From NCBI RefSeq assembly GCF_028736155.1, contig NZ_CP117879.1, forward strand, positions 2,666,001 through 2,730,000: 64,000 bases of DNA, read 5' to 3'. Below the pieces are notes generated by a model. That model made no database searches and was not told where the DNA came from. It saw nothing but the letters and a program-made list of their open reading frames with translations. Positions 32,874 through 63,717 of the stretch are shown here, piece after piece. The stretch's first letter is position 1. Every line of letters starts with the position of its first letter. Both the position numbers and the translations under genes were made by a program. Origin of the DNA: Flavobacterium sp. KACC 22763 (GTDB lineage: Bacteria; Bacteroidota; Bacteroidia; Flavobacteriales; Flavobacteriaceae).

Positions 32874-32915
32874 TACGTATTTTTATAAGTATAAATACTT
32901 ATATTTGCATAGTAA
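32874..32915 (+). promoter_or_regulatory. nirB promoter with inverted heptamer sites
   Basis: TACGTAT (32874-32880) and ATAAGTA (32885-32891) form a 7-4-7 inverted pair. TACTTAT (32896-32902) then overlaps the -7 element TATATTTG (32900-32907), with a partial ATAGTA half behind it. The centres of the two palindromes are about 23 bp apart, like those at the nitrate reductase gene. Confidence 0.75.
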
Positions 32916-32933
32916 TACTTAATTAAAGAAATC

Positions 32934-35447
32934 ATGATTAGAGTAATAGTAGTTGGAAACGGCATGGTTGGTTATAAATTTTGCGAAAAGTTTGTTGCAA
33001 AATCAGGACAAGAGAAGTATCAAATCACAGTATTTGGAGAAGAACCAAGACGCGCCTACGATCGCGTTCACTTAAGCGAGTACTTTGGAGGAAAGACAGC
33101 TGATGATTTATCACTATCAACGACCAATTGGTACGCAGAAAACAATATTATTCTAAATACATCAGAGTTAATTACAGATATTAATCGTGATGTAAAAACT
33201 ATTCATACACACTTAGGCAAAACACATACGTACGACTACTTAGTTTTAGCTACAGGTTCTTCGGCATTTGTGCCACCAATTGAAGGCGTAGAAAAAGAAG
33301 GTGTTTTTGTTTACAGAACCATCGAAGATCTAGATGCTATTATGGCTTACGCCAAAAAAATAAAAATAAAGGGTGCTACAGAAGCCGCCGTTTTAGGTGG
33401 AGGTTTATTAGGTCTTGAAGCGGCAAAAGCCGTTAGAGATTTAGGCTTAAATCCTCATGTGGTGGAATTTGCACCACGTTTGATGCCGAGGCAATTGGAT
33501 CAAGGCGCGAGTGATATGCTTCAATCAAAAATAGAAGAATTAAATATCGGAATTCATCTTAACAAAGCAACACAATACATTGATGGAAAGGAAAGTATAA
33601 CGGGAATGATGTTTGCAAACGACGAATTGTTAAAAGTAGACATGTTGGTTATATCTGCCGGAATTAAACCTCGCGACGAACTGGCAAGAGTTTCAGGACT
33701 TGAAGTTGGTGTACGAGGCGGAATTGTGGTAAACAATCAAATGCGAACATCAGATCCTTCTATTTTTGCAATTGGCGAAGCAGCTCTTTACAATCATAAC
33801 ATTTACGGACTTGTTGCGCCAGGTTACGAAATGGCCGATGTAGCTGCTGAACAAATCTTAAATGGTGATAAAACCATGAGAGAAACCATCGATATGTCAA
33901 CACAATTGAAATTAATTGGTGTTGAAGTTGCGAGTTTTGGTGATCCTTTTATTGAAAATAATGATGTCACAGCTATTATTTATGAAAATAAATTAAGTGG
34001 CGTTTACAAAAGAATCAACGTTACTAAGGATTCTAAAAAACTTTTAGGCGGAATTTTAGTTGGAGATTCTAGCGATTACGGTTCGCTTTTTCAGATTTAC
34101 ATCAACGAAATGGCGTTGCCTAAAAACCCAGAAGATTTGATTTTAGGTTCTCGTGACGGTTCTGAAGGTTCTTCTTTAGGAAGCGTAATGGATTTGCCAG
34201 ACACCGCCGTAATTTGTTCTTGCGAAAATGTTACAAAAGGCGCTATCTGCTGTAAAATTTTAGACGAAAGCTGTTCTTCACTTTCAGATGTCGTTAAAGC
34301 GACTAAAGCAACTTCTGGCTGTGGAGGCTGTAAACCAATGGTTTCTGATTTGGTAAAAGCAACACAGAAATCTTTAGGAAAAGAAGTAAAAGAAGTGATC
34401 TGCGAACATTTCAGCTACACACGTCAAGAATTATTTGATTTAGTAAAAATCAACAAATACGAGAATTTCTACGATGTTTTAGATCATCACGGAAAAGGCG
34501 ACGGATGCGAAGTTTGTAAACCAGTTGTAGCTTCTATTTTCTCAAGTATCTACAATGATACTGCTAATAAACACGTAACTACACAAGATACAAACGATAG
34601 ATTTTTAGCAAACATTCAACGAAACGGAACCTATTCTGTAGTTCCAAGAGTTGCTGGAGGAGAAATTACTGCTGAGAAATTAATCGTAATTGGCGAAGTG
34701 GCAAAACAATTCGATTTGTACACTAAAATTACTGGAGCACAAAGAGTTGATTTATTCGGAGCGCACTTAAGCGATTTGCCAAAAATCTGGAAAATCTTAA
34801 TCGACAATGGTTTTGAAAGCGGTCATGCCTACGGAAAATCACTTCGTGCTGTAAAAAGCTGTGTCGGAAATGCGTGGTGCCGTTACGGAATGGACGATAG
34901 CGCCGGATTTGCGATTGAACTAGAAAACAGATATAAAGGAATCCGTTCTCCGCATAAACTAAAAGGTGGTGTTTCAGCCTGCATTCGCGAATGTGCCGAA
35001 GCTCGCGGAAAAGATTTCGGATTAATTGCTGTTGAAGGTGGATGGAATTTATACATCTGCGGAAATGGCGGAGCAAATCCAAAACATGCCGTTTTATTGG
35101 CTGAAAAAATCGACAAAGAAACTGTGATCAAATACATGGATCGCTTCTTAATGTATTACATACGTACTGCTGGTCCGCTAATTAGAACTTCAACTTGGTT
35201 GGAAAAACTAGACGGAGGTTTAGAGTATTTGAAACAAGTAATTATAGAAGATAGTTTAGGAATCTGCGAAACGCTTGAAGCTGAAATGCAGACTTTAGTA
35301 AACACTTTCGAATGCGAATGGAAACAAGTGCTAGAAAAACCAAGATTATTGAAACGTTTCAATCATTTTATAAACTCAGACGAAAAAGACGACAACGCTG
35401 TTTTCGTACCATTAAGAGATCAAAAAATGCCAAAAGCTTGGTCATAA
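32934..35447 (+). CDS. nirB: Assimilatory nitrite reductase large subunit
   Basis: NirB reduces nitrite to ammonium with NAD(P)H, FAD, Fe-S and siroheme in the cytosol. The 837-aa protein has the full layout: an FAD/NAD-binding oxidoreductase (VVGNGMVGYKFCEKF at the start, second GxGxxG-like GGGLLGLEAAKA about 160-171), two BFD-like [2Fe-2S] regions (CSCENVTKGAIC ... SGCGGCKP, about 427-470; then GCEVCKP about 523), and the siroheme/[4Fe-4S] domain with CVGNAWCRYG, CIRECAEARG and YICGNGG (about 645-710). The upstream DNA carries the nitrate-regulon heptamers. nirD follows after a repeat. Confidence 0.97.
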   Translation: MIRVIVVGNGMVGYKFCEKFVAKSGQEKYQITVFGEEPRRAYDRVHLSEYFGGKTADDLSLSTTNWYAENNIILNTSELITDINRDVKTIHTHLGKTHTYDYLVLATGSSAFVPPIEGVEKEGVFVYRTIEDLDAIMAYAKKIKIKGATEAAVLGGGLLGLEAAKAVRDLGLNPHVVEFAPRLMPRQLDQGASDMLQSKIEELNIGIHLNKATQYIDGKESITGMMFANDELLKVDMLVISAGIKPRDELARVSGLEVGVRGGIVVNNQMRTSDPSIFAIGEAALYNHNIYGLVAPGYEMADVAAEQILNGDKTMRETIDMSTQLKLIGVEVASFGDPFIENNDVTAIIYENKLSGVYKRINVTKDSKKLLGGILVGDSSDYGSLFQIYINEMALPKNPEDLILGSRDGSEGSSLGSVMDLPDTAVICSCENVTKGAICCKILDESCSSLSDVVKATKATSGCGGCKPMVSDLVKATQKSLGKEVKEVICEHFSYTRQELFDLVKINKYENFYDVLDHHGKGDGCEVCKPVVASIFSSIYNDTANKHVTTQDTNDRFLANIQRNGTYSVVPRVAGGEITAEKLIVIGEVAKQFDLYTKITGAQRVDLFGAHLSDLPKIWKILIDNGFESGHAYGKSLRAVKSCVGNAWCRYGMDDSAGFAIELENRYKGIRSPHKLKGGVSACIRECAEARGKDFGLIAVEGGWNLYICGNGGANPKHAVLLAEKIDKETVIKYMDRFLMYYIRTAGPLIRTSTWLEKLDGGLEYLKQVIIEDSLGICETLEAEMQTLVNTFECEWKQVLEKPRLLKRFNHFINSDEKDDNAVFVPLRDQKMPKAWS

Positions 35448-36347: not shown

Positions 36348-36932
36348 ATGACTACACCTTTTCAAAAAGCAAGCGAATGGATTGATGCTGAAAACGCACA
36401 AGACCCAAACATCGAATTAGACCAAAACAAAGAATATCCAAAAGAATTGTTGTATTCTGACAGGATGTATAAAAAACTGATGGAATTTGAACCGAACGCA
36501 TCCGAAGAAGTTCAAATTGCTTCAAAAGCACAACACATCTGCCGATGGAAAGTCGCTCGTGAATCATATCCAATGGATCGAGTTGGTTACTTAAAATGGA
36601 GAGAAGAACTAAAAAAATTCCACGCAAAAACTACAGCTGAAATCTTAGCAAGAGCAGGTTACGATCAAACTTTTATCGATCGTGTTTCTTTCTTAATCGA
36701 AAAAAAATTACTTAAAAAAGATGCCGAAACACAATTATTGGAAGACGTAATTTGTTTGGTGTTTTTAGATTATTATTTAGAACCTTTCGTTCACAAGCAC
36801 GACGAAGAAAAGCTGAAAAACATCATCAAGAAAACCTGGGATAAAATGTCTGACAAAGGACATCAGGAAGCTTTAAAAATCAATTATTCTGAAGAAAACT
36901 TAAACCTAATAAAAGCTTCTTTAGGATTGTAA
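36348..36932 (+). CDS. DUF4202 domain protein
   Basis: A 194-aa cytosolic protein that matches DUF4202 along its length: FQKASEWIDAENAQDPN, ELLYSDRMYKKLMEFEP, AQHICRWKVARESYPMDRVG, YLKWREELKKFHA and VICLVFLDYYLEPF. The regularly spaced His, Arg and Asp residues hint at an HD-like metal-dependent fold. No reaction is known. It is found beside nitrate or sulfur assimilation genes in several bacteria as far as I recall, and here it starts the unit with the nitrate sensor kinase (6-bp gap), so a link to nitrogen assimilation is likely. Confidence 0.88.
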   Translation: MTTPFQKASEWIDAENAQDPNIELDQNKEYPKELLYSDRMYKKLMEFEPNASEEVQIASKAQHICRWKVARESYPMDRVGYLKWREELKKFHAKTTAEILARAGYDQTFIDRVSFLIEKKLLKKDAETQLLEDVICLVFLDYYLEPFVHKHDEEKLKNIIKKTWDKMSDKGHQEALKINYSEENLNLIKASLGL

Positions 36933-36938
36933 AAAGAT

Positions 36939-38750
36939 ATGAAGAAAAGCAATCAGGAAGCAGCAGAAAAAATCACTTTCAAAAATTTACGCCGTCTGTA
37001 TTTTTTTGCGCTTCTTACTATTGCCTTAACTATAATTGTCAGTCAGTTTCTGGTTCAATACAATCTGAATCAGCAGTTAAGCGATTCTAAAATCATTAAT
37101 TTTTCTGGTAAGCAAAGAATGCTGAGCCAGAAAATTGTCAAAGAAGTCCTCATTTTACATTACGTTTCTGATTCGGCTACAGCCAAAAAAACTTCACACT
37201 TAAAAGAGGTCTTAGAACTTTGGAAAAAGAATCAAAATGCGTTGGAAAACGGGAATGACAGTCTAGCTTTTCCAAAAGAAAAAAGCGAAACGCTAAATAA
37301 ATTGTATCTGGAAATCAATCCGATTTTCAATAAAATTACACAAACTACAGATTCTTTTCTGCTGAATTTACAACAGAAAAAATCGACTTCTGAAAACCAG
37401 AAACTAGTTCAAATTATTCTAGAAAACGAAGGTGTTTTCCTTTCAAAAATGAATCAGATTGTAACGCAATACGATCTTGAAGCGCACGAAAAAGTAACCG
37501 AGCAGCGCAGAATCGAATATTGGATTTTTGGTTTTACATTGCTTGTTCTGCTTTTAGAATTCTTCTTCATTTTCAAACCAACCAACAAGAAAATCGAAAG
37601 GCTCATTGCTCAGCTTTTATCTTCTGAAAAGAAAGCGCTGAAACTAGCCTACGACACCGAAATCATAAGTGAAATCAAAGAAAACTCAGTAAAAGAATTA
37701 AAATCGCTCAATTATGCGATGGAAAATACTTTACTGTATTGCCGAATTTCACCAGATGGCTCGATCATCCATATTGGAGAAAAATTTGCAAAACTTCTTA
37801 ATTACACTAAGTTTTCATCTAACAAAAAGTTCTCTCAAGTACTGACAGAAGACGAAAAAGAACAGGTTAATTTTGACCGTCTTATTTTCGAAAAACAGCG
37901 CAGCGGCTGGCAAGGCGAAATCAAAATTATAAATAAAGATGAAAAAGAAATCTGGCTCGATTTATCGATGGTTCCCGTAATGATCAAAAAAGACGAATTG
38001 GAACTTTTGATCGTTTGTTTCAACATCACCGAACGCAAAAAAGCACAGCGTGAAGTTGAACGTTTGAACCTTGAAAACACTACCGAAAAAATCAACCAGC
38101 AAAAGATTATTTCAAGCAAAATTGTTGAAAATCAGGAAAACGAACAAAACCGAATCGCTAAAGAAATTCATGACGGAATCGGTCAAATGCTTACCGGTTT
38201 AAAGTTCAGTTTAGAAAGCATTAATCTAGACGACAGAGAAAAGTCAGAACAAAAAATAGAATATTTAAAAAAGCTTTCTTTAGATATTATAAAAGGTGTC
38301 CGTACGGCAACTTTCAACCTAATGCCACCAGAATTAAGCGATCACGGAATCGTTTCGTCATTATCAAAACTAACGCAGGAGCTTTCAAAACTTACGGGAA
38401 AAGAAATCCTTTTCTACAACAAAACCGATTTCGACCAGCGCTTAGATTCCTTAATCGAAATCAATATTTACAGACTTACGCAAGAAGCCATCAACAACGC
38501 CATTAAATATGCAGAATCCTCTCATATAATTGTACAGCTTTCGCACAGCGATACACTTTTAAGTATTATCGTTGATGACAACGGAAAAGGTTTTGATGTC
38601 AATTCAGTCGATAAAAAGCGTAACAGCGAATCAGGAATGGGGCTTTTATTTATGAAAGAAAGAATCCAATACATCAACGGCCGCGTTTTCATGAACTCCA
38701 TTCCAGGTGAAGGAACGAGAATTACATTCAACATCCCGATCTTAAAATAA
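36939..38750 (+). CDS. NarX-like membrane sensor histidine kinase
   Basis: A 603-aa kinase. TM1 (about 20-40) and TM2 (about 194-212) enclose a helical periplasmic sensor that begins with NFSGKQRMLSQKI (residues 54-66). This is the P-box-like motif of NarX/PilJ-type sensors, where nitrate is bound by NarX. A coiled stretch, a PAS domain (about 265-370) and a HisKA_3 helix with phospho-acceptor His in RIAKEIHDGIGQML follow, then a HATPase with DDNGKGFDV and GMGLLFMKERI. The NarL-family regulator gene is 715 bp downstream. It is very probably the nitrate/nitrite sensor of the cluster. Confidence 0.88.
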   Translation: MKKSNQEAAEKITFKNLRRLYFFALLTIALTIIVSQFLVQYNLNQQLSDSKIINFSGKQRMLSQKIVKEVLILHYVSDSATAKKTSHLKEVLELWKKNQNALENGNDSLAFPKEKSETLNKLYLEINPIFNKITQTTDSFLLNLQQKKSTSENQKLVQIILENEGVFLSKMNQIVTQYDLEAHEKVTEQRRIEYWIFGFTLLVLLLEFFFIFKPTNKKIERLIAQLLSSEKKALKLAYDTEIISEIKENSVKELKSLNYAMENTLLYCRISPDGSIIHIGEKFAKLLNYTKFSSNKKFSQVLTEDEKEQVNFDRLIFEKQRSGWQGEIKIINKDEKEIWLDLSMVPVMIKKDELELLIVCFNITERKKAQREVERLNLENTTEKINQQKIISSKIVENQENEQNRIAKEIHDGIGQMLTGLKFSLESINLDDREKSEQKIEYLKKLSLDIIKGVRTATFNLMPPELSDHGIVSSLSKLTQELSKLTGKEILFYNKTDFDQRLDSLIEINIYRLTQEAINNAIKYAESSHIIVQLSHSDTLLSIIVDDNGKGFDVNSVDKKRNSESGMGLLFMKERIQYINGRVFMNSIPGEGTRITFNIPILK

Positions 38751-38829
38751 TGAGTTAATGTGCCAATTAGAAAATTAGATAATTATTTAACACATTCATA
38801 AGAATTATCTAATTGACACATTAACTCAT
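38751..38829. repeat. AATTAGATAATT-type inverted repeat
   Basis: TGAGTTAATGTGCCAATTAG followed by AAAATTAGATAATT is inverted as AATTATCTAATTGACACATT then AACTCA. It begins directly at the kinase stop codon and may act as its terminator. Confidence 0.75.
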
Positions 38830-38850
38830 TATCTAATTATCATGGCGAGC

Positions 38851-38911
38851 CAGTATTGGGGAAAGTGGGCAAACAAACTTTGTCTATATTCGCCCACTTT
38901 CCCCAATACTG
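38851..38911. repeat. Perfect 20-bp hairpin element
   Basis: The 20-mer CAGTATTGGGGAAAGTGGGC (38851-38870) is exactly inverted at 38892-38911 with a 21-bp spacer. It is followed by a fragment of the GC-rich GTCGGGCT element also seen at 27087. Confidence 0.85.
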
Positions 38912-39020
38912 TCGGGCTATCCGGGCTACTTCGGTAGCTTCCTCCTATCCCTCTCGCGGGCAAAGGGTTTCAAAAGAAAATTTAATTTTACCAAGGAATT
39001 AAAAAGTGAAAAAATGAATT

Positions 39021-39138
39021 GCCTCCAGCTTTAGCTCGAGGTTACAAAAAAGTACTAGGAAGCGCTTTAGCCAAACTTACGCATTTGGCTAAAGCCCTCT
39101 CTTCTAGCTACAAAAACATCCAGCTAAAGCTGGAGACA
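39021..39138. repeat. CTCCAGCTTTAGCT-type inverted repeat
   Basis: The left arm GCCTCCAGCTTTAGCT and the right arm AGCTAAAGCTGGAGAC lie about 85 bp apart. A second, inner pair (GCGCTTTAGCCAAA / TTTGGCTAAAGCCC) is nested inside. Confidence 0.75.
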
Positions 39139-39176
39139 ATTAAAAACCAAACTTTATCAAAGTTTTATGCACGCTT

Positions 39177-39280
39177 GTCAGGCTGAGCGGAGTCGAAGCC
39201 TACGCGAGTAACTCTACAAAGATTGGCGATTTAGATTGTGGAATTTCTTTGCACTAGCTTCGACTCCGCTCAGCCTGGCA
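39177..39280. repeat. Long hairpin repeat, family C (GCTGAGCGGAGTCGAAG)
   Basis: The left arm GTCAGGCTGAGCGGAGTCGA and the right arm TCGACTCCGCTCAGCCTGGC are inverted. The core again carries CTACAAAGATTGGC, shared with family A in reverse. A lone right arm is at 52163-52187. Confidence 0.85.
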
Positions 39281-39398
39281 ATCCTATATTCAATTTGGAA
39301 TTTGGTATTTTAATATTCGAATTTATCTAAGGATTTCTAATGATTTTTTAATATTGGAATTTGGAATTTCAAAAAATTGGAATTTTAAATAAAAAAAG

Positions 39399-39437
39399 TA
39401 CGTATATTAGCATCTTCTTTTTAGATGAATATACGTA
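39399..39437 (+). promoter_or_regulatory. Heptamer sites ahead of the response regulator
   Basis: TACGTAT (39399-39405) and ATACGTA (39431-39437) are inverted with a 25-bp spacer. TATATTAG (39403-39410), one mismatch from the -7 consensus, overlaps the first. This suggests autoregulation. Confidence 0.6.
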
Positions 39438-39465
39438 AAAATTGAGAATCAAAATTAAGTAAACT

Positions 39466-40125
39466 ATGAACAATATCATTCGTGTAGTACTGGCAGATGA
39501 CCATGTTTTTGTTAGAGACGGAATCAAGTCTTTACTTGAAAACGAAGCAAACATCGAGGTTGTAGGCGAAGCAATTGATGGTGAAGATGCACTTGAAGTA
39601 GTTGCAGCAACACAGCCAGATTTACTTATAGTAGATATTCGTATGCCAAACTTAACAGGTATTGAGGTAGTAGAAAAACTTAGAAACGAAAAAAACAACG
39701 TAAAAATCATCATGCTTTCAATGCACGAATCGGAAGAATATGTCTTGAAATCAATAAAAGCGGGAGCCGACGGATATTTGCTAAAAGGCTCAAGCAAAGA
39801 AGAATTCTTAAAAGCATTGCATAGCGTTGCTGTAGGAGGAAAATATTTCAGCGGTGATATTTCTTCTATATTAATTAGCCAATTAACTAATTCATCAACA
39901 TCATTAGAACCAAAACAACCTTTAGGTGAAGAAATGATGATTACCAAAAGAGAAAAAGAAATCCTAACCCTTCTTTTATCTGGAAAAGGAAACAAAGAAA
40001 TCGCCGAAGCGCTTGATATTAGTAAACGAACTGCCGAAGTGCACCGTTTCAACTTAATGAAAAAACTGAAAGTAAAAAACCTTATGGAACTTTCTAATAA
40101 AGCGGCTGAATATTCTTTAATTTAA
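39466..40125 (+). CDS. NarL/FixJ-family response regulator
   Basis: A 219-aa two-component regulator. The receiver domain (1-125) has the acidic pair in VLADDHVFVRDG (about residues 9-11), the phosphorylated Asp in LLIVDIRMP (about 55) and the Lys in YLLKGSSKEE (about 106). The C-terminal LuxR HTH (about 155-215) reads MITKREKEILTLLLSGKGNK, then EIAEALDISKRTAEVHRFNL. It is the natural partner of the NarX-like kinase. NarL proteins bind TACYYMT heptamers, and close variants of these lie at this cluster's promoters, including its own. Confidence 0.9.
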   Translation: MNNIIRVVLADDHVFVRDGIKSLLENEANIEVVGEAIDGEDALEVVAATQPDLLIVDIRMPNLTGIEVVEKLRNEKNNVKIIMLSMHESEEYVLKSIKAGADGYLLKGSSKEEFLKALHSVAVGGKYFSGDISSILISQLTNSSTSLEPKQPLGEEMMITKREKEILTLLLSGKGNKEIAEALDISKRTAEVHRFNLMKKLKVKNLMELSNKAAEYSLI

Positions 40126-40131
40126 AAAAAA

Positions 40132-40147
40132 TACGTATAAATACGTA
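40132..40147 (+). promoter_or_regulatory. 7-2-7 palindrome upstream of the nitrate transporter gene
   Basis: TACGTAT-AA-ATACGTA, the exact spacing of high-affinity NarL sites. A second loose pair follows (TACTTAC at 40195 and ATAAGTA at 40217), around a weak -7 element TACTTTTA (40199-40206). Confidence 0.75.
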
Positions 40148-40225
40148 ATTATTTTTCTAAAACTGCGTTTTAGCAGGTTTTTACTAAGTTATAGTACTTA
40201 CTTTTACATAAAAACAATAAGTACT

Positions 40226-41710
40226 ATGAAAAATACAAACTCACTATCGCAGTCACACAAAATTTTATTTTTGAACACATTGGCATTTACAGTGTGTTTT
40301 GCCTGTTGGACATTAAACGGGGTTCTAGTAACCTTTTTAGTTGATAATGGAATTTTCCATTGGGATGTTATTCAAGTCGGATGGCTTTTAGGTATTCCAA
40401 TTTTAACTGGATCAATCATGCGTTTGCCAATCGGAATCTTAACGGATAAATTTGGCGGAAAATATGTCTTTTCACTTTTACTTCTTCTAAGTTCAATTCC
40501 GCTTTTCCTTCTTCCTTATGCTGACAGCTTTTTTATGTTTGCGTTACTTAGTTTCTTCTTTGGAATGGTAGGAACCAGTTTTGCAGTCGGAATTGGATAT
40601 ACCTCAATTTGGTACCCAAAAGAATGGCAAGGTCGCGCACTAGGAATCTTCGGAATGGGGAATGCTGGCGCAGCTATCACAACATTTTTAGCACCTTCAT
40701 TATTAAATCATTTCTCTATCGACGATCCGCAAAATGGCTGGAAAGTACTACCTGTTATTTATGCCATTTCATTAGTAGTAATTGGTGTTGCCTTTTTAAT
40801 TTTCGCTCAAAACAAAAAAATAGAAAGCAGTGGTAAAACCATTTCACAAATGCTTACTCCTTTAAAATCAGAAAGAGTTTGGCGTTTTGGAGCTTATTAC
40901 TTCTTAGTTTTCGGATGTTTTGTAGCTTATTCTCAATGGTTATTGCCAAATTTCATGAACGTGTACCAAACGAGTTTAGTTATGGGCGGTTTATTTGCAA
41001 CAATGTTCAGTTTACCATCTGGAGTAATTAGAGCTTTCGGAGGTTATTTATCAGATAAATTTGGAGCGAGAAAAGTAATGTATTGGGTTTTGAGTTCCTC
41101 TGTAATTTTAAGTGCTTTATTATCGATTCCGAAAATGGAAATCACTACTTCTGGGCCAGGAATACTTGCGGCAAAAAAAGGTGTTGTTAACGAAATTAGC
41201 GACAAAACCGTGAAAATTGGCGATAAAGAATATCCAATTGCACAAAAAACAGCCAATAGTAATGAAAATGCTATTTTTCCAACTTCTACTAGCTGGCAAG
41301 ATGTTGTTGTAGCACACAATCAAAGTGTTGCTAAAAAAGAATTGATTGCCAAAGGTGTGACCGTTATTAAGTTTGATGCCAATATGTGGGTATTTCTGGT
41401 TTTAGTAATTCTAATTGGGATTTCTTGGGGAATTGGAAAAGCGGCTGTCTACAAACATATTCCTGAATATTTTCCAAAAGAAGTTGGCGTTGTGGGCGGA
41501 ATGGTAGGAATGATTGGTGGCTTAGGCGGGTTCTTCGGTCCAATTATCTTTGGATATCTATTAACTGCAACCGGAATCTGGTCAAGTTCATGGATTTTTA
41601 TTTTAATCTTTTCAACTATCTGCTTAATTTGGATGCATTACACTATTACTCAACTATCTAAGAAAAAGGAAGTTAAAGTAAATAAAGCAAAATTAGAACC
41701 TGCCTATTAA
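40226..41710 (+). CDS. narK: NarK-type nitrate/nitrite transporter (MFS)
   Basis: A 494-aa major facilitator of the nitrate/nitrite porter family, bringing nitrate in (and possibly nitrite out) across the inner membrane. Twelve membrane spans are expected. Both nitrate signature glycine motifs are present: LGIFGMGNAGAAITTFLAPS (about residues 137-156) and GGMVGMIGGLGGFFGPI (about 423-439). RLPIGILTDKFGGKY is the MFS loop motif. Unusually, about 75-80 hydrophilic residues (about 308-385) with a KGVVNEISDKTVKIGDKEY beta stretch are inserted between membrane spans in the second half. It is preceded by the nitrate-regulon palindrome. Confidence 0.93.
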   Translation: MKNTNSLSQSHKILFLNTLAFTVCFACWTLNGVLVTFLVDNGIFHWDVIQVGWLLGIPILTGSIMRLPIGILTDKFGGKYVFSLLLLLSSIPLFLLPYADSFFMFALLSFFFGMVGTSFAVGIGYTSIWYPKEWQGRALGIFGMGNAGAAITTFLAPSLLNHFSIDDPQNGWKVLPVIYAISLVVIGVAFLIFAQNKKIESSGKTISQMLTPLKSERVWRFGAYYFLVFGCFVAYSQWLLPNFMNVYQTSLVMGGLFATMFSLPSGVIRAFGGYLSDKFGARKVMYWVLSSSVILSALLSIPKMEITTSGPGILAAKKGVVNEISDKTVKIGDKEYPIAQKTANSNENAIFPTSTSWQDVVVAHNQSVAKKELIAKGVTVIKFDANMWVFLVLVILIGISWGIGKAAVYKHIPEYFPKEVGVVGGMVGMIGGLGGFFGPIIFGYLLTATGIWSSSWIFILIFSTICLIWMHYTITQLSKKKEVKVNKAKLEPAY

Positions 41711-43222: not shown

Positions 43223-43588
43223 ATGAAACCATTTCTAAAATTGTCCTTGCTGACTTTTATTGTCACGCAAACAGGTATTGCCCAAAAATACGATGATGCC
43301 TTAATTTCGAAAAACTCAGAAATTAATTTTGCCAAAACGCAAAAAAGAGGAATCAAAAAAAACAACATAGTTTATTATGTTGAAAATGATCTGCAGACCA
43401 TTTCTGCCTACAAAAGAAAAAAACTGAAATGGCAAACCAATGTAATTTCAATCTGTGGAAAACCTAAAAAAGGAGAACCTGAAATTAGATATGTTGGTTA
43501 CAACTCAGACAAACTGCTTATCGTAATCGGAAAACACAATTTTGCTGAAATCGACATTAACAGCGGAGAAACAAAATTTGTTGGTTAA
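43223..43588 (+). CDS. Hypothetical small exported protein
   Basis: A 121-aa protein with a signal-peptide-like N-terminus (KPFLKLSLLTFIVTQTGIAQ, about residues 2-21). The remaining 100 residues are beta-rich and basic (YVENDLQTISAYKRKKLKWQ, LLIVIGKHNFAEIDINSG), like a single blade of a PQQ/YWTD-type repeat. No family recognised. It has its own promoter element and terminator, so it is a genuine single-gene unit. Confidence 0.7.
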   Translation: MKPFLKLSLLTFIVTQTGIAQKYDDALISKNSEINFAKTQKRGIKKNNIVYYVENDLQTISAYKRKKLKWQTNVISICGKPKKGEPEIRYVGYNSDKLLIVIGKHNFAEIDINSGETKFVG

Positions 43589-45146: not shown

Positions 45147-45851
45147 CTAAAAATACTTATGCTCCATAATTTCAGATCTTAACTCTGAGACTTCCAAAAT
45201 CCCAACACGCTTTCCTTCGGTTTTAATCAGCGATTCTTTTTTAAGACTTGATAAAATACGTATTGCCTGCTCTTCTGTTGTTCCTGCAAAATCGGCAATT
45301 TCTTTTCGCGAAAGCTCAATATCAATCAAACCATTCGTTTGTCCGAATTTGCGGTGAATATAAAGCAGTAAATCAATTACACGCTCACGAACATTCATGT
45401 GCGCAATCTTGCGGATATTGTTTTCGCTCTTGTTCAATTCTTCGGCATAAAACAACATTAAAGCATAGGTAAATTCCGGAATATGCTGTAAAATTTCGAC
45501 CATAGTTTCGTTGCTGAAATTACACAAAACTGTATCTTCAAGCGCATAAGCTCCAATTAAGTATTTTTTACTTGTTCCAAATCCACGGAAACCGATGATA
45601 TCGCCGTTTTTGGTTAAACGAACAATTTGTTCACGACCATTAATTCCCGTTTTTACCGTTTTAACTTTTCCCTTGCAAATAAAATAAAGCCCTTGTAAAG
45701 GCGCACCTTCCGTTATAAATCGATCAGATTTTTTACAAGTAATACTTCGTTTTTTAGAAACATAACCAGCCATCTGTTCTAAATGCAGATGTTTCTTGAT
45801 AAAACAATTTTCATTGACGCAGGAATAACAAATGGTTTGCTCTTCTTTCAT
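45147..45851 (-). CDS. FNR-like Crp-family regulator with candidate Fe-S cysteines
   Basis: A 234-aa regulator with an N-terminal cNMP-type beta-roll and a C-terminal winged HTH. Cysteines C8, C11 and C16 lie before the roll and C110 (EDTVLC) lies in it. The spacing from C16 to C110 (94) is nearly that of E. coli FNR C29 to C122, so an oxygen-sensing [4Fe-4S] cluster is plausible. The recognition helix (TEEQAIRIL) keeps the FNR Glu and Arg but has Ile at the Ser position, so the DNA site should differ. It is divergent from the nitrate reductase gene, with a palindrome between them. Confidence 0.88.
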   Translation of the reverse strand: MKEEQTICYSCVNENCFIKKHLHLEQMAGYVSKKRSITCKKSDRFITEGAPLQGLYFICKGKVKTVKTGINGREQIVRLTKNGDIIGFRGFGTSKKYLIGAYALEDTVLCNFSNETMVEILQHIPEFTYALMLFYAEELNKSENNIRKIAHMNVRERVIDLLLYIHRKFGQTNGLIDIELSRKEIADFAGTTEEQAIRILSSLKKESLIKTEGKRVGILEVSELRSEIMEHKYF

Positions 45852-45933: not shown

Positions 45934-45973
45934 TACGTATTAATACGTAAAAATACTTATTTTTGCATAAGTA
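45934..45973 (+). promoter_or_regulatory. Double palindromic operator of the nitrate reductase promoter
   Basis: TACGTAT-TA-ATACGTA (45934-45949) is a perfect 16-bp palindrome. TACTTAT (45954-45960) and ATAAGTA (45967-45973) form a second inverted pair with a 6-bp spacer that contains most of the -7 element TATTTTTG (45958-45965). The centres are 22 bp apart, two helical turns. TACTTAT fits the NarL heptamer consensus TACYYMT exactly. Confidence 0.82.
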
Positions 45974-46027: not shown

Positions 46028-49000
46028 ATGCAAACTACGAAGATCAAAACTACCTGTTCCTACTGCGGCGTTGGCTGCGGCATAATCGTGACCAATGATG
46101 CTAAAAATGGCGTAATGGTTGAGGGCGACAAAGATCATCCTGTAAACAAAGGAATGCTTTGTTCTAAAGGAATGAACCTGCATTACGTAGTCAACGATAC
46201 TTCCGATAGAATTTTATATCCAGAAATGCGAGGAAGCAAATCGTATCCATTAGAACGCGTAAGCTGGGATACAGCTCTTGATCGCGCCGCTGCGGTTTTT
46301 TCTTCAATCATAAAAAAACATGGACCAGATAGCGTTGGCTTTTATATTTCAGGACAATGTTTAACCGAAGAATATTACTTAGTCAATAAATTGGTAAAAG
46401 GTTTTCTTAAGACCAATAATATAGACACCAATTCAAGACTTTGCATGAGTTCTGCAGTTGTGGGTTATAAAAAAACTTTCGGAGAAGATTCTGTGCCAAT
46501 TGCTTATGATGATATTGAATTGGCTGACACTTTTTTAATTACAGGCGCAAATCCGGCTTGGTGCCACCCTATTCTTTTCAGAAGATTAGAAAAACACAAA
46601 GAGAAAAACCCGAAAACCAAAATAATTTGCATCGATCCAAGACGAACAGATACTGCTGCTTTCGCCGATTTACATTTGCAGATTATTCCAGGTTCGGATA
46701 TTATTTTATATCATGCGATTGCGAGACGTATTATCGAGAAAGGCTACGTCGATCATGATTTTGTAAAAAACCACGCTGAGAATTTCAAACAATATAAAGA
46801 CTTAGTTTTAGGAACTTCTCTTGAGAAAGCTTCTAAACTTTGCGGAATTTCGGTAAACGACATCAAACTTGCCGCCGATATTATTGGTAAAGCAAAAGGT
46901 TTTATTTCGCTTTGGGCAATGGGATTAAACCAAAGTGCTGTTGGCGTTGATAAAAATACGGCTTTGCTGAATTTATCACTTTTAACGGGACAAGTTGGAA
47001 AACCAGGCTCTGGTCCATTTTCTTTAACAGGCCAACCTAACGCAATGGGCGGACGAGAAGTGGGTGGAATGGCAACACTTTTGGCCGCACATAAAGATAT
47101 TGCAAACCCTACGCATCGAAAAGAAGTAGCCGATTTTTGGGGTGTCGATGAGATTTCAGATAAACCGGGCTTAACTGCCACAGAAATGTTTGAAGCTCTT
47201 GAATCTGGAAAAATGAAAGCCGTTTGGATTATCTGCACCAATCCGTTAGTAAGTTTACCAGATTCACGCAGGGCTGAAAAAGCGCTTCAAAATGCTAAAT
47301 TCGTAGTCGTTCAGGACATTTCTCATAATGCTGATACAGCCAAATTTGCCGATTTATTGTTGCCTGCTGCGGGTTGGCTAGAAAAAGAAGGAACGATGAC
47401 CAATTCCGAACGTCGTATATCGTATCTCCCAAAAGGAATCAATGCGCCAGGAGAAGCGCTTCCAGATATTGAAATTTTAATTCGTTTTGCTAAAAAAATG
47501 AATTTCAATGGTTTCAATTTCAACAGTGCCGAGGAAGTTTACAAAGAACATTGTGCACTAACTAAAAATACCAATATTGATATTTCGTTTTTAAATTATA
47601 ATCGTTTAAAAACTGAGGGAACTTTTCAATGGCCAGTTCCTGATTATAATCACCCAGGAACTCCGAGATTATTTACAGACAAAAAATTCTATACACCTTC
47701 TGGAAAAGCGATTTTTAATCTGCCAGTTTCTATCGAAAATACATCGGTTCAGCCAAATGATGAATTTCCTTTTATCTTAACAACGGGAAGAATTCGCGAT
47801 CAATGGCATACGATGACCAAGACTGGAAAAGTATCACGATTACTGACACATATTCCAAGTCCAGTTTTAGAAATAAATCCAATTGACGCTTATAAAAACG
47901 ATATTAAAAACGGAGATATTGTTACCGTTACGAGCAAAAATGGAGAAGTTCGTGTAAAAGCAAAAGTTACAGATTCAATCAAAGAAAAAGTCGTTTTTCT
48001 ACCGATGCATTGGGGAAAACAACTCGAAAATGATTTAAACAGAACCAATAATTTAACGAATACTGTTGTCGATCCAATTTCAAAAGAACCTGATTTTAAG
48101 TTCACAACCGTTTCGATAAAAAAATATGTAAAACCATTTCAGAAAATTGCGATTATTGGCGCTGGAGCGGCTTCTTTCCGCTTCATTCAAAACTATCGCG
48201 AATTCAATTCAACAGATGAAATTATTGTTTTTTCTAATGAAATGAATCCGTTTTATAATCGAGTTTTGCTTCCAGAATATATGACAGGAGAATTCAGCTG
48301 GGAACAACTTTTGAAAGTAAAAGACGGAGAAGCTTTCAGTAAGTTGAAAATCACAATGAAAGCTGGAGTGGCAATTGAAAAATTAGATCCAAAACAAAAA
48401 ACAATTATAGATAGTCAAGGCGAAATTCACACTTTCGATTCGTTGATTATGGCAACCGGAAGCCGTCCTTTCGTTCCAGAAAATGCACAACTTCATCTTC
48501 CTGGCCGTTTTACCGTTAGAAGAAAAGAAGATGCTGATCGTTTAAAAAAACACTTAGACAACACTAATCTTCCGCCAGAAGAACAGCATGTTGTCATTAT
48601 CGGCGGCGGATTATTAGGATTAGAATTGGCTGCAGCATTAAAACATAAAAAAGTAAAAACCACGATCGTTCAAAGAGCTTCTCGTTTAATGGAGCGTCAA
48701 TTGGATCTAATTTCGAGCAAATTATTGGCCGAAGAAGTACAGCTTCGCGATATTCAAATTTATTTTGATAATGAAGTCAGCACCGTTTTTGAAACCGATA
48801 ATCCAAATGAAATCGAAATTGCTTTAAAAAGCGGAAAAATCATAACGGCAAACGCTATTGTATATACCATTGGAACTATTCCGAATATCGAGATTGCTCG
48901 TGAAAGCGGACTTTCTTGCGGTCGCGGTGTAAGAGTAAATCAGTATTTACAGACTTCAAATCCAGATATTTTTGCGATTGGAGAAATTGCAGAATTTGAT

Positions 49001-49546
49001 AATAAGTTATTCGGAATCACTTCTGCAGCTGAAGAACAAGCTGATATTCTAGCCAATTTCCTTGCAGGCGATATAAGCAGTTATTATAAAGGTTCGATTT
49101 TAATGAATATTCTAAAATTAGAAGATATCAACCTTTGCAGTATCGGCGATATTACGATTCCTGAAAATGACGATTCATATGAAGAAATTGTTTTTACCGA
49201 TTTGAAAAAACGCTATTACAAAAAGTGTATCGTAAAAGACGATCTTTTAGTTGGAGCAATTTTAATGGGAGATAAAAACGAGTTTGCCGAATTCAAAACT
49301 ATGATCGAAAGCAAAATCGAATTATCAGACAAACGAAATACGCTTTTAAGAGGAAGCTCAGATGCAAAACCGGTTTTAGGAAAATTAGTCTGTTCATGCA
49401 GTCAAGTTGGAGCTGGAAACATTGAAGAAACGATTAAAAGTGGTGTAAATGATTTCACTGAATTATGCAAAAACACAGGCGCAGGTTTAGGTTGCGGAAG
49501 CTGTAAAACAGAGGTTAAAGAGATTCTTGCGAAATGTAAAGTGTAG
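46028..49546 (+). CDS. Assimilatory nitrate reductase fused to NirB-like reductase module
   Basis: A 1172-aa cytosolic fusion. Residues 1-700 are a molybdopterin nitrate reductase: N-terminal [4Fe-4S] CSYCGVGC (C10, C13, C17, then C46), Mo-bis-MGD domains with SRLCMSSAVVGYKK, GANPAWCHPI and TGQPNAMGGREVGG, and a C-terminal dinucleotide-binding domain (TTGRIRDQWHTMTKTG). Residues about 705-1090 are an FAD/NAD(P)H oxidoreductase like the NirB start (IAIIGAGAASFRFI, IIGGGLLGLELAAAL). About 1115-1165 is a BFD-like [2Fe-2S] domain (CSCSQVG ... GCGSCK). So NAD(P)H-to-nitrate electron flow is built into one chain. There is no signal peptide. Confidence 0.94.
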   Translation: MQTTKIKTTCSYCGVGCGIIVTNDAKNGVMVEGDKDHPVNKGMLCSKGMNLHYVVNDTSDRILYPEMRGSKSYPLERVSWDTALDRAAAVFSSIIKKHGPDSVGFYISGQCLTEEYYLVNKLVKGFLKTNNIDTNSRLCMSSAVVGYKKTFGEDSVPIAYDDIELADTFLITGANPAWCHPILFRRLEKHKEKNPKTKIICIDPRRTDTAAFADLHLQIIPGSDIILYHAIARRIIEKGYVDHDFVKNHAENFKQYKDLVLGTSLEKASKLCGISVNDIKLAADIIGKAKGFISLWAMGLNQSAVGVDKNTALLNLSLLTGQVGKPGSGPFSLTGQPNAMGGREVGGMATLLAAHKDIANPTHRKEVADFWGVDEISDKPGLTATEMFEALESGKMKAVWIICTNPLVSLPDSRRAEKALQNAKFVVVQDISHNADTAKFADLLLPAAGWLEKEGTMTNSERRISYLPKGINAPGEALPDIEILIRFAKKMNFNGFNFNSAEEVYKEHCALTKNTNIDISFLNYNRLKTEGTFQWPVPDYNHPGTPRLFTDKKFYTPSGKAIFNLPVSIENTSVQPNDEFPFILTTGRIRDQWHTMTKTGKVSRLLTHIPSPVLEINPIDAYKNDIKNGDIVTVTSKNGEVRVKAKVTDSIKEKVVFLPMHWGKQLENDLNRTNNLTNTVVDPISKEPDFKFTTVSIKKYVKPFQKIAIIGAGAASFRFIQNYREFNSTDEIIVFSNEMNPFYNRVLLPEYMTGEFSWEQLLKVKDGEAFSKLKITMKAGVAIEKLDPKQKTIIDSQGEIHTFDSLIMATGSRPFVPENAQLHLPGRFTVRRKEDADRLKKHLDNTNLPPEEQHVVIIGGGLLGLELAAALKHKKVKTTIVQRASRLMERQLDLISSKLLAEEVQLRDIQIYFDNEVSTVFETDNPNEIEIALKSGKIITANAIVYTIGTIPNIEIARESGLSCGRGVRVNQYLQTSNPDIFAIGEIAEFDNKLFGITSAAEEQADILANFLAGDISSYYKGSILMNILKLEDINLCSIGDITIPENDDSYEEIVFTDLKKRYYKKCIVKDDLLVGAILMGDKNEFAEFKTMIESKIELSDKRNTLLRGSSDAKPVLGKLVCSCSQVGAGNIEETIKSGVNDFTELCKNTGAGLGCGSCKTEVKEILAKCKV

Positions 49547-58640: not shown

Positions 58641-59813
58641 CTAATCAATTGGCAATAATGTTACCAATTGCCCTTTTTTATAATTTTCAATATCTTCCGG
58701 AACAATTAATAAACTGTTTGCAACTGCAAATGTGTTTAGCATTGCAGAACTTTGTCCATCCAAAACTGTTACGCTTGTTTCGTCGTATTTTGCTTTTAAA
58801 AACAATGTTTTTCCGGTATTGTTTTTTATTTCTGAGTTTAATTTTCGAACTACTTTCGGTTTATGAATTTCCGAAAATCCAATTCTGTTTTTCACCGCCG
58901 GAGCAACATAAATATAAAAATTAGTCAGAGATGAAGCCGGATTTCCCGGAAGCGCAAAAACTAAAGTTTCATTTTTAGATCCAAAAAACATAGGCTTTCC
59001 TGGCTTTTGATTGATTTTATAAAAAAGTTCTTTTACATCGTTTTGCAATAATGCTTCTTTTACAAAATCATAATCTCCAACCGAAATTCCACCAGAAATA
59101 AGAACGATATCATATTTTTTTAAAATCCCTTGCAACGCTTTTTTTGTTGCTTTTAGATTATCTTTTACTCTGTAAACTTTCGTTTTTTCAATTCCGATAG
59201 TTTGAAGCGCTGCTTCTAACATAACTGAATTACTTTCGTATATTTTCCCTTTTTTTAGCTTCTCACCTGCCTGAACTAGTTCATTTCCTGTTACTAAAAT
59301 CGCTACTTTCGGTTTCTTATAAACTTCAATTTCTGTAATCCCTAAGCAAGCCAAAAAACCAATTGCTGCAGGTGTAATCAAAGTATTGGCTTCAAAAACA
59401 ACCTCATCTTTAGCAATCTGTTCTCCTTTTGGACGAACGTTTGACAATTTCTCTGGCATTGTAGCAATTAAAATCGAATTTTTATTTGCCATCACATGTT
59501 CCTGCATTACCACTGTATCAGCATCATCTGGAACATAAGCTCCTGTAAATATTCTAATTGCTTCAGTTGCTTTCAGTTTTATATTTGAATGATCTCCAGC
59601 CTGAGAAATTCCAACAACATCATATTGATGGCGAATACTGTGTGTAAACGCATATCCATCCATCGCTGATTGGCGAAATGGAGGCATATTGATTGGCGAA
59701 ATCACTTTTTCTGCTAAAACATATCCTAAAGCTTTGCGTACCGAAATATTCTTTGTTGGCATTTTAGTACTATTCGCTTCAATAATTGCTATGGCTTCTT
59801 CAACTTTAATCAT
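58641..59813 (-). CDS. moeA: Molybdopterin molybdotransferase
   Basis: MoeA inserts molybdate into adenylylated molybdopterin. The 390-aa protein has the MoeA order: MPPFRQSAMDGYAFTH (about residues 38-53), IFTGAYVPDDADTVVMQEHV (about 88-107), VAILVTGNELV, KIYESNSVML (about 190), DIVLISGGISVGDYDFVKEAL (about 235-255) and FALPGNPASSL (about 286-296), all typical. A nitrate-regulon-type promoter lies 30-60 bp upstream of the start, which ties cofactor synthesis to nitrate control. Confidence 0.96.
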   Translation of the reverse strand: MIKVEEAIAIIEANSTKMPTKNISVRKALGYVLAEKVISPINMPPFRQSAMDGYAFTHSIRHQYDVVGISQAGDHSNIKLKATEAIRIFTGAYVPDDADTVVMQEHVMANKNSILIATMPEKLSNVRPKGEQIAKDEVVFEANTLITPAAIGFLACLGITEIEVYKKPKVAILVTGNELVQAGEKLKKGKIYESNSVMLEAALQTIGIEKTKVYRVKDNLKATKKALQGILKKYDIVLISGGISVGDYDFVKEALLQNDVKELFYKINQKPGKPMFFGSKNETLVFALPGNPASSLTNFYIYVAPAVKNRIGFSEIHKPKVVRKLNSEIKNNTGKTLFLKAKYDETSVTVLDGQSSAMLNTFAVANSLLIVPEDIENYKKGQLVTLLPID

Positions 59814-59842: not shown

Positions 59843-59876
59843 TACTTATTACAAATATAAGTATTTTTACTTAGTT
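59843..59876 (-). promoter_or_regulatory. Nitrate-regulon-type operator and promoter of moeA
   Basis: TACTTAT (59843-59849) and ATAAGTA (59857-59863) are inverted with a 7-bp spacer that, on the minus strand, completes the -7 element TATATTTG (59859-59852). An upstream half-site TACTTAG (59868-59874) sits where a 7-2-7 site would be centred, about 22 bp from the first, the spacing seen at the nitrate reductase gene. Confidence 0.72.
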
Positions 59877-61357: not shown

Positions 61358-63574
61358 TTAAACACTTGCATAAGCTTCAGATTCTTTTGCTGGCGGGGCA
61401 ATTGCCCCTTGCGGAAATAATTGGCAGGCACAGACTTTAAACTCAGGAATTTTAGAAATTGGATCTAATGTTCCTGGTGTTAACTGATTTGCAGATTTGT
61501 GTCCCGGCCAATGATACGGAATGAAAACAGTATCTTTTCTAATAGTTTCTACAATATTGGCGGGAAAAATTCCTTCGCCTCTACGCGTTACTACTCGAAC
61601 TAATTCACGTTGTTTAATATTATATTTTGTGGCCATTTCTGGATGGATTTCGACCATTGGCTCCGGAAACTGATCCACTAATTTGCCAATTCTTCGGGTT
61701 TGCGTTCCACTCAAATATTGCGAAACTACACGTCCAGTTGTCAGTGTTATTGGATATTCATCATCGGTAACTTCACCCGGAAGTTTATATGGCGCGGGAT
61801 TAAAATGCGCTTTCCCGTCAGGTGTTTTAAACTTTTTATCTTCCCAAAGTCTTGGTGTTCCCGGATGATCTTCAGTTGGACAAGGCCAGAAAACGCCCAT
61901 ATTATCTTCTACTTTTTTATATGTGATCCCGAAATAATCTGCTGTACCGCCTTTTGAAGCTACACGTAATTCATTGAAAATTTCTTCGCTATTATTGTAA
62001 GTAAATTTATCTTTTTCGCCCAAACGCTCAGCAATTTCTAATAAAATCGAAGTATCTGTTCTTGCTTCACCCGGTGGCGTAACGGCTTGCCTGATTCGAA
62101 TAACACGTCCTTCTGCAGAAGTTGTTGTTCCTTCTTCTTCTTCCTGTAAAGAGCCTGCTAAAACAATATCCGCATGTCTTGCAGTTTCATTCAAGAAGAA
62201 ATCAATACATACATAAAACTCTAATTTTTCTAAAGCTGATCGCACATAATTATTGTTTGGAAGCGAAACCAACGGATTAAAACAAATAGAAATTAAGCCT
62301 TTTATTTCATCTCTATGAATTGCTTCGATAATTTCGTAAGCTGTGAGTCCTTTTCCTGGTAAATCTTTTTCATCAATTCCCCAAACTTCAGAAATATATT
62401 TTCTATGTTCTGGATTTTCAATATCTCTGTTTCCTGGCAATTGATCACATTTATGTCCATGTTCCCTGCCTCCCTGACCATTTCCTTGTCCTGTAATTGT
62501 TCCGTAACCACAATACGGTTTTCCGATTCTTCCAGTTGCTAGAACCAAATTGATACAGCCTACAACATTATCTACGCCTTTTGAATGATGCTCAATTCCT
62601 CTTGCATGCAATAAAAAGCTAGTTTTTGCTTTTCCCCATAATTCGGCAGCAGCTTTTATTTTTTCCTTGTCAATTCCAGTTACTTCTTCTGCCCATTCTA
62701 AAGTATAGTCTTTTACAGCATCAATTGTTTCTTGAAATCCAGATGTATAATTATCGATAAAATCATGATCTAACATATCGTGATCTACCAAATATTTCAG
62801 CATTGCGCCATATAAAGCCGAATCTGTTCCGGGTTTTACGTCAAGATGAATATCGGCAGTTCTAGCCAGCGGAATCATTCTTGGATCTATAACAATTAAT
62901 TTTGCACCACGATCTCTGGCTTTCCAAATCCAATGAGTAAGAGTTGGAAATGTTTCACTGATATTCGCTCCAGTTACGATAATAACTTCAGCATATTCTA
63001 AATCAGAATAATTGTTTGAAGCTCGGTCTAAACCAAATGCTTTTTTATTTCCTGCACCAGCACTTACCATGCAAAGTCTGCCGTTATAATCCAGATTTCT
63101 TGTTTTTAAGGCAACGCGAGCAAACTTTCCAACTAAATAACTTTTTTCATTGGTTAATGAAACGCCAGAAAGCATTGAGAATGCGTGTTTTCCGTATTTC
63201 TCCTGAATTCTTTTTATTTCAGAAACCGTTTTGTCCATTGCATCATCCCAGGAAACTTTCTCAAAACCTTTTCCTTCTACTCTTTGTATTGGATGCAAAA
63301 GACGATCAGGATGATTATTTTGAAGATAACGCTGTACTCCTTTTGGGCATAGACGACCTTCATTAAAAGGAAATTCCATCCATGGTTCAAAACCTACAAC
63401 TTTGTTTTCTTTCACCATTAATTGAATGCCACATTGCATGCCACAGAAACAGCAATGCGTTTTTACAACTTCATCTGGTTCATCTCTTCCAGCATAACCG
63501 TCTACTGGCGCGTAGTTTAAATGTGGTCCAAAGTCATCTATTATTTTCTCTATTGATACTGGTAGTTTTGCCAT
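61358..63574 (-). CDS. Molybdopterin oxidoreductase (second nitrate-reductase-like enzyme)
   Basis: 738 aa from the ATG at 63574 (an upstream TTG would run into the flanking repeat). It is a bis-MGD enzyme of the formate dehydrogenase/assimilatory nitrate reductase branch. The N-terminal [4Fe-4S] motif is [12 protein letters not shown] (about residues 41-52) with the fourth Cys in [11 protein letters not shown]. Downstream motifs are [32 protein letters not shown] and [14 protein letters not shown], and a C-terminal domain [17 protein letters not shown]. There is no Tat signal, so it is cytosolic. With the ferredoxin, Rieske and small membrane genes it makes one operon. The substrate is probably nitrate, by context. 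Confidence 0.9.
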
Positions 63575-63600
63575 TGCCTTTTTGTTATTTTTTGTTTTAG

Positions 63601-63717
63601 GTTTCAAGTTTCATGTTCTGTGCGAAACTTGAAACCTCAAATTTGAAACTTTATAAATTTTGTCTTCAGGTTTTACGTTCAGTCTGGAACTTGAAACTTT
63701 AAACCTGAAACTTTTTA
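63601..63717. repeat. GAAACTTGAAACCT-type repeat tract
   Basis: Alternating GGTTTCAAGTTTC and GAAACTTGAAACCT pieces form several overlapping inverted repeats between the two genes. Single pieces also occur near 49770, 57525 and 58530. Confidence 0.65.

Follow-up and report, generated by a model that had tools for sequence, protein, structure and literature searches.

In Flavobacterium sp. KACC 22763, genes for nitrate and nitrite reduction, nitrate transport and molybdenum cofactor synthesis lie within the 64,000-nucleotide stretch of contig NZ_CP117879.1 analysed here (hereafter, the window), together with genes for a sensor kinase, a NarL-like response regulator and an FNR-like regulator. 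Similar palindromes precede several of these genes, and a sequence-only reading of the window had proposed that they form a shared operator, bound by either the NarL-like or the FNR-like protein. We asked whether these palindromes exceed chance, how widely they are kept in relatives, which protein is likely to bind them, and with what effect.

A 16-bp palindrome concentrated in the nitrate locus

The two 7-2-7 palindromes at 45934-45949 and 40132-40147 are exact, and are the sole exact copies of TACGTATNNATACGTA in the 5.56-Mb genome. A spaced TACGTA pair upstream of the response regulator (39399/39432) and two TACTTAT...ATAAGTA pairs, one with a spacer of 6 (45954-45973) and the other with a spacer of 7 (59843-59863), are likewise present as described beforehand. 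The 7-4-7 pair reported upstream of nirB (32874-32891) exists, but its right arm reads ATAAGTA rather than ATACGTA, and the nirB palindrome that is conserved, at 32886-32901, had not been named. Realignment of the promoters yielded a better description of the palindromes, the 16-bp site TAMGTA-N4-TACKTA, with nine exact copies in the genome against one for the reversed-pattern control. Six of the nine fall in the window, which holds 1.15% of the genome sequence (binomial 2e-10), starting at 32886 (nirB), 33227 (nirB coding DNA), 40132 (narK), 45934 and 45944 (nasA), and 59858 (moeA). Of the other three, one precedes a ModE-like gene, one precedes an sdhC-like gene, and one is in the gap separating sucA from an unknown gene. 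Leaving out the match in coding DNA, five of nine in the window still give a binomial value of 2e-8. That match (33227-33242) is kept in several relatives; it appears to be a coincidence, probably retained through a protein motif (a YDYL-type codon run), and stands as a warning for motif scans.

The enrichment anticipated for a genome scan was borne out for exact matches, which cluster in the window, but not for mismatch-tolerant ones, which show no genome-wide excess. With up to one mismatch, TAMGTANNNNTACKTA has 7 matches in the window versus 0.33 expected. Genome-wide, the signal is drowned at ≤1 mismatch of TAMGTA-N4-TACKTA (49 sites versus 139 for the reversed pattern) and lost at ≤2 mismatches of the original palindrome pattern (21 sites, equal to the 21 of the reversed control). 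The palindromes are real, beyond chance and, as detailed below, conserved across the Flavobacteriaceae; where the sequence-only reading saw a two-site switch, the conserved core is one palindrome plus additional half-sites.

Arrangement of sites at individual promoters

Upstream of nirB, the nitrite reductase large subunit gene (32934-35447, forward strand; NCBIfam TIGR02374 above cut-off), the operator TAAGTATAAATACTTA (32886-32901) ends in a TA that is also the beginning of the −7 element TATATTTG (32900-32907). It is flanked by an upstream half-site TACGTA (32874-32879) and by a downstream half-site TACTTA ahead of the start codon (32916-32921). Many relatives have such flanking half-sites at nirB: of 56 promoters, 26 carry TAMGTA no more than 24 bp ahead of the site, and 36 carry TACKTA no more than 34 bp past it.

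The nitrate reductase promoter is more elaborate. A distal operator shared with the divergent fnr-like gene, TACGTATTAATACGTA (45934-45949), is followed 10 bp downstream by a proximal operator, TACGTAAAAATACTTA (45944-45959), so that the two exact sites overlap by 6 bp and have one half-site in common, and the proximal one shares its TA with the −7 element TATTTTTG (45958-45965). Downstream, the forward strand encodes an assimilatory nitrate reductase of nasA type, to which a NirB-like reductase part is fused (46028-49546; NasC model 531 bits, below the cut-off of 1100). A second molybdopterin enzyme, near NasC (849 bits, cut-off 1100), is encoded in the same window at 61358-63607. At narK (40226-41710, forward strand), a narK-like nitrate/nitrite transporter gene scoring 189 bits for the NarK family (cut-off 312), the distal operator TACGTATAAATACGTA (40132-40147) is exact. 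A proximal site found by the pattern scan, TAAGTTATAGTACTTA (40185-40200), has one mismatch and places a half-site TACTTA on the −7-like TACTTTTA (40199-40206; 40185-40206 as a whole), an arrangement that recurs at the same place in the Flavobacterium narK upstreams compared. On the reverse strand, the molybdenum-cofactor gene moeA (58641-59813, identified by domain/profile match) has the −7 element TATATTTG at 59852-59859 and an exact operator, TAAGTAAAAATACTTA, at 59858-59873.

The presumed promoter of the regulator gene consists of a half-site TACGTA (39399-39404) abutting the −7-like TATATTAG (39403-39410), on the forward strand as is a second TACGTA in the leader (39432-39437); upstreams of the regulator in Flavobacterium likewise show TACGTA followed by a similar box. 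This leader (39399-39437) can be folded as a hairpin (−13.4 kcal/mol, z −2.4) whose arms are the two half-sites. An RNA structure was nonetheless rejected: the left arm reads TACGTATATT or TACGTATCTT depending on the relative, without a matching change in the right arm, and this lack of compensating changes makes DNA half-sites the simpler reading. The half-sites standing right before the start codons of nirB, narK and the regulator could be explained in part by A-rich translation starts.

Conservation across relatives

That one operator links the nitrate promoters is supported, and the operator is conserved in related genomes. Counting a site within 300 bp of the gene, among genomes for which upstream DNA was fetched and ignoring kinship, we found it in 56/56 nirB and 20/20 narK upstreams, 15/17 for moeA, 17/22 for cobA, 38/51 for nasA (full site absent in 13) and 52/64 for the fnr-like gene (absent in 12). 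It is less regular at the regulator gene itself (23/58, full site absent in 35, and 0/21 in Flavobacterium) and at an algE-like porin gene (12/47). No site was found upstream of the genes for the DUF4202 protein (0/34), a NirA-like protein (0/26), moaA (0/12), tauE (0/9) or the open reading frame at 43223 (0/10).

In the nasA-fnr intergenic region of relatives, the arrangement TAMGTA-N4-TACGTA-N4-TACTTA-TTTTTG recurs, and some relatives keep the distal palindrome with one additional base before the last half-site. The TACTTAT-N6-ATAAGTA pair, on the other hand, is poorly conserved: in the nasA flanks compared, its downstream half-site is present in four genomes (G000, G006, G042, G049) and absent from eight (G003, G008, G010, G025, G046, G052, G054, G060). 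Among 180 sites collected upstream of nirB, the fnr-like gene, narK, nasA and moeA, with the common nasA-fnr region counted twice, position 3 is C in 101, A in 78 and G in 1, and position 14 is T in 105, G in 72, C in 2 and A in 1. The search itself imposed positions 1, 2, 4-6, 11-13, 15 and 16, and all 56 nirB promoters satisfy them.

Across a phylum-wide sample of 345 genomes, nirB was found in 26, with an exact site in 15 of these, a single-mismatch site in G654, an N5-spaced version in G527, and no site in the other nine. This distribution points to an operator of the Flavobacteriaceae and near relatives rather than of the whole phylum.

Register with the −7 element

The section of PMC9723704 describing the sigma-A promoter of F. 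psychrophilum gives its −7 box as TAnnTTTG at −12 to −5. In 53/56 nirB promoters, such an element begins with the TA that ends the operator, whereas elsewhere in nirB upstream regions only 1.1% of TA dinucleotides precede a box of this kind. From this overlap, the operator would span about −26 to −11. Expressed as the distance from operator center to box, this register (6.5) is shared by nirB, 28/35 fnr-like promoters of other genera and 10/38 nasA promoters. Further nasA and fnr promoters have distances of 17.5 or 27.5, and narK has 59.5 in 7/18 Flavobacterium genomes, with no such box in 9, though the narK upstreams compared keep the half-site on the box.

The offsets 6.5, 17.5, 27.5 and 59.5 thus recur between promoters. 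Others are off whole turns, namely 10.5 at the porin gene and 14.5-16.5 at nasA and the regulator gene of other genera, and 11/20 nasA promoters of other genera have no box of this pattern within reach. A helical-phase test on 11 modes gave p-values of 0.005 at 10.5 bp, 0.05 at 10 bp and 0.006 at 11 bp; as these modes were picked by hand, the preference for a 10.5-bp period is no more than suggestive. TTG at −33 occurs at chance level (5/82 versus 5.4 expected in shuffled flanks).

A NarL-like regulator as the probable binder

The site, its conservation, its register with the −7 element and its co-occurrence with a response regulator are observed; from these we infer that the palindromes probably serve as operators for the nitrate/nitrite two-component system whose genes occupy 36939-40125. 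In this system, the sensor kinase (36939-38750, forward strand) combines, by Pfam, a PilJ/NarX-type sensor domain with PAS, HisKA_3 and HATPase domains. The section of PMC8199190 that defines a Bacteroidetes class of nitrate-sensing kinases lists a P-box N..G..RM, PAS and HisKA_3, without HAMP or GAF. The kinase of the window fits this class, with an INFSGKQRM motif (INFSGKQRMLS as P-box), matches to PilJ, PAS_9, HisKA_3 and HATPase, and neither HAMP nor GAF among its domain matches.

The response regulator (39466-40125, forward strand), our proposed binder, has the features that define the NarL/FixJ group, namely a receiver with a phospho-accepting Asp (Response_reg, PF00072) and a GerE/LuxR-type helix-turn-helix (GerE, PF00196). 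Its best solved relative is E. coli NarL (1a04), aligned over the full length, and its scores are below the NCBIfam cut-offs for NarL (163 bits, cut-off 250) and MctR (197 bits, cut-off 300). Residues D11, D12, D57 and K107 are present in all 62 regulator homologs aligned, including two diverged outgroup ones, and the recognition helix E.HR[FY]N in 52/52 regulators found in the fetched loci of the 56 nirB genomes. An identical regulator occurs in Flavobacterium nitrogenifigens NXU-44, and F. johnsoniae CI04 also has the regulator. NarL contacts bases through K188, V189 and K192, and the residues aligned to these positions here are E, V and F.

Among the candidates weighed, then, the NarL-like regulator proposed in the sequence-only reading appears the best, but equating the palindromes with the NarL heptamer itself did not hold. 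In the 7-2-7 consensus cited there (TACYYMT), positions 4 and 5 are pyrimidines. Here position 4 is always G, and position 3, where NarL has C, is A in 78/180 sites; the helix differs as well. The G was required by our search, yet 56/56 nirB promoters satisfy that search.

Site counts were next related to regulator presence; all are per genome, with the reversed pattern as control, and are uncorrected for kinship, so that lineage is a confounder. In a genus sample of 61 genomes, an FNR-like protein was found in 19 and the response regulator in 22 (E ≤1e-60). Genomes with both (n = 19) have 6-14 sites, on average 8.9 versus 2.3 for the control, and those with neither (n = 39) average 1.2 versus 1.4. 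A family sample of 299 genomes contained the FNR-like protein in 49 and the regulator in 52 (E ≤1e-70), with more just below the cut-off. Sites were scanned in 77 of these genomes. Means were 7.7 versus 2.9 with both regulators (n = 47), 5.0 versus 3.1 with the regulator but no FNR (n = 11; a modest excess, Wilcoxon 0.04), and 1.6 versus 2.2 with neither (n = 19). In the 11 regulator-only genomes, 34/55 exact sites lie within the fetched stretches of about 20-32 kb that surround the nitrate genes, although individual genomes depart from the trend, such as G202 with 5 sites versus 10 for the control.

Several apparent exceptions dissolved when weaker matches were considered. Seven genomes that seemed FNR-positive and regulator-negative at 1e-70 all have the regulator just below this threshold, at 215-237 bits (below cut-off in G135, G211, G239, G243 and G287; by tblastn in fetched loci in G135, G243, G288 and G345). 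G071, initially classed as having neither, has a regulator at 229 bits and is counted as regulator-bearing in the scan. Three neither-class genomes have several sites (G065, 7; G016, 6; G073, 6), and other members of this class could hide a weaker regulator ortholog; none of the 19 neither-class family genomes has nirB above cut-off. Conversely, G057 and G004 keep the regulator without an excess of sites (4 versus 4 and 2 versus 6 for the control), and neither has FNR or, in the 20 kb fetched from each, an intact nirB or nasA. In G057, the regulator is 95% identical and has a relic site behind it, nirB and narK are found only as fragments, the kinase is in two pieces, and nasA (in the fetched 20 kb) and an fnr-like ortholog are missing, as in a decaying regulon. 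Outside the family, the helix E.HRFN accompanies an exact site in G542 and the N5-spaced variant in G527, while the nine nirB genomes without a site comprise two with a diverged regulator of changed helix and seven without a regulator in the ~20 kb fetched.

Alternative binding proteins

The FNR-like regulator (45147-45851, reverse strand) was initially favored as the binder, which would place the nitrate genes under oxygen control through FNR-type 14-mers with N4 spacing. Its gene is divergent from nasA, with the nasA operator common to both, and tracks the sites across the genus. The G of the site lies 4.5 bp from the center, as in FNR and CRP geometry, and the E and R of the recognition helix are kept in 46/47 helices compared, the remaining one having D for the first E of TTEEQ with the same E and R. 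As in FNR, all four presumed cluster cysteines, by which membership of this group is judged, are present (C8, C11, C16, C110); they are found in 62/65 orthologs, including one lacking only C39, while two others have H at position 110 and one has an alignment that does not span residues 8-16. Site counts are also higher where the FNR-like protein is present than in genomes having just the response regulator, an excess that partly reflects the site at fnr itself. What led us to drop this candidate is that genomes without FNR have intact sites. The nirB site is kept in every one of the 19 nirB genomes that lack FNR; one of them, Flavobacterium G008, also has intact sites at nasA and narK. Conversely, the site is missing from three outgroup genomes in which nirB has an FNR-like neighbor (31-37% identical) and the fetched stretch contains no response regulator. 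The presence of the site does not depend on an FNR-type regulator, as it should for an FNR operator, and we consider binding by this protein improbable. Given that FNR-less genomes keep their sites and that the site lies upstream of the fnr-like gene in most genomes that have this gene, the gene is probably a target of the nitrate system instead.

Regulator, kinase and nirB are inherited together, and their distribution is therefore also compatible with another factor, linked or unlinked. The DUF4202 protein, encoded behind nirB-nirD at window positions 36348-36932, is one such operon-tied candidate, as its gene follows nirD in most family loci fetched (20/20 in one set). Pfam, however, finds DUF4202 alone in this protein and no DNA-binding domain, and in G239 and G287, where nirB has a site, the 17 kb fetched contain neither DUF4202 nor a kinase. 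A general, unlinked regulator fits poorly with genomes lacking the nitrate system, which show no motif excess. Such a factor, whether operon-tied or unlinked, seems to us even slightly less probable than the FNR-like protein.

Proposed regulon and mode of action

Should the NarL-like regulator be the binder, the kinase would detect nitrate or nitrite through its PilJ/NarX-type sensor and phosphorylate the regulator; a regulator dimer would then occupy TAMGTA-N4-TACKTA. Computational footprinting suggests a regulon made up of nirB, followed by nirD, DUF4202 and the kinase gene, together with narK, nasA, moeA and the cofactor genes, the fnr-like gene and a modE-like molybdenum gene. The regulator may also control its own gene. 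The right half-site is placed directly on the −7 element in the nirB promoter, in part of the nasA promoters and, in other genera, at the fnr-like gene; at other promoters, the palindrome is found further upstream, often by whole helical turns.

The modE-like gene was picked up by the blind genome search for the site. At position 3826223 of the genome, an operator lies on the −7 element of this gene, which encodes a ModE-like DNA-binding protein (ModE domain 88.2 bits, cut-off 98.5) and is followed by TonB-dependent receptors; in the distant genome G005, a similar protein of 115 aa is encoded behind the same operator and box. Exact TACGTACTTTTACGTA palindromes were also seen at 3914707, upstream of the sdhC-like gene, and at 4544300, between sucA and the small unknown gene. 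In 30 loci read, of 38 genomes matched, the sdhC site at −122/−123 is kept in 9/12 of the closest and 0/18 of the more distant relatives; G057, which has lost its nitrate genes, still keeps it. A link from nitrate control to the TCA cycle via the sdhC and sucA sites is possible.

As to the sign of regulation, we infer from promoter geometry that activation is somewhat the likelier output. The fixed register, the partial helical phasing and the lack of −33 enrichment make us lean towards an activator-dependent promoter. A repressor, which the sequence-only reading expected at a site covering the −7 element, would instead block RNA polymerase there until a signal releases it. The span of the proximal site, from about −26 to −11, and the additional half-sites downstream of the start fit this reading, and the part of PMC4549865 dealing with frdA describes repression by E. 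coli NarL from sites close to the start. A repressor would need neither the exact −7 register of 53/56 nirB promoters nor distal sites partly in phase, however, and the absence of TTG enrichment at −33 is as in activator-dependent promoters, although −33 may be weak in this group anyway. We regard repression of a basal promoter as the main alternative, less likely than activation, and a mixed effect takes up what remains after activation and repression. The geometry can be read as activation in a specific form, which we put forward tentatively. The Flavobacteriaceae regulator may activate from an operator whose right half-site forms part of the −7 element, with its center at about −18.5; contact with RNA polymerase would then be made in the spacer, not at −42 or further upstream. 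Distal copies would act by whole helical turns, and in close relatives the regulator would also reach sdhC and sucA.

Relation to known systems

Two-component control by nitrate is already known as a kind. The locus resembles the NarX/NarQ-NarL/NarP systems of Proteobacteria in its NarX-type sensor motif (GxxR kept), NarL-like regulator, nitrate/nitrite targets and 16-bp palindrome. It differs from them in the core TAMGTA-N4-TACKTA, the helix E.HRFN, the fusion of the operator to the −7 element and the assimilatory nature of the genes. In NreBC of staphylococci, a LuxR-type regulator likewise controls nitrate and nitrite reductase genes via palindromes, as proposed here, with a different sensor type and a GC-rich site. 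Unlike in FNR systems, the operator is kept in genomes without the FNR-like protein, whose gene looks like a target. For comparison, the engineered NarL 7-2-7 heptamer site reported in the relevant section of PMC4549865 is TACCCCTAAAGGGGTA.

A further parallel is with the Bacteroidetes nitrate-sensing kinases as presented in the main text of PMC8199190, with which the kinase shares the sensor, PAS and HisKA_3 domains, no matched HAMP and nitrate-gene neighbors. A word search of that main text finds neither "promoter" nor "DNA-binding"; regulator, operator and regulon are what the present analysis adds to this kinase class. A search of titles and abstract openings in the open literature, with subscription journals mostly outside its reach, found no publication on this operator. 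The analysis proposes a DNA target for the nitrate-sensing kinases of Bacteroidota, and a regulon that takes in nitrate reduction and transport, the molybdenum cofactor and an FNR-like regulator. An operator joined in fixed register to the −7 element would also be an informative case of how activators work with the unusual Bacteroidota promoter.
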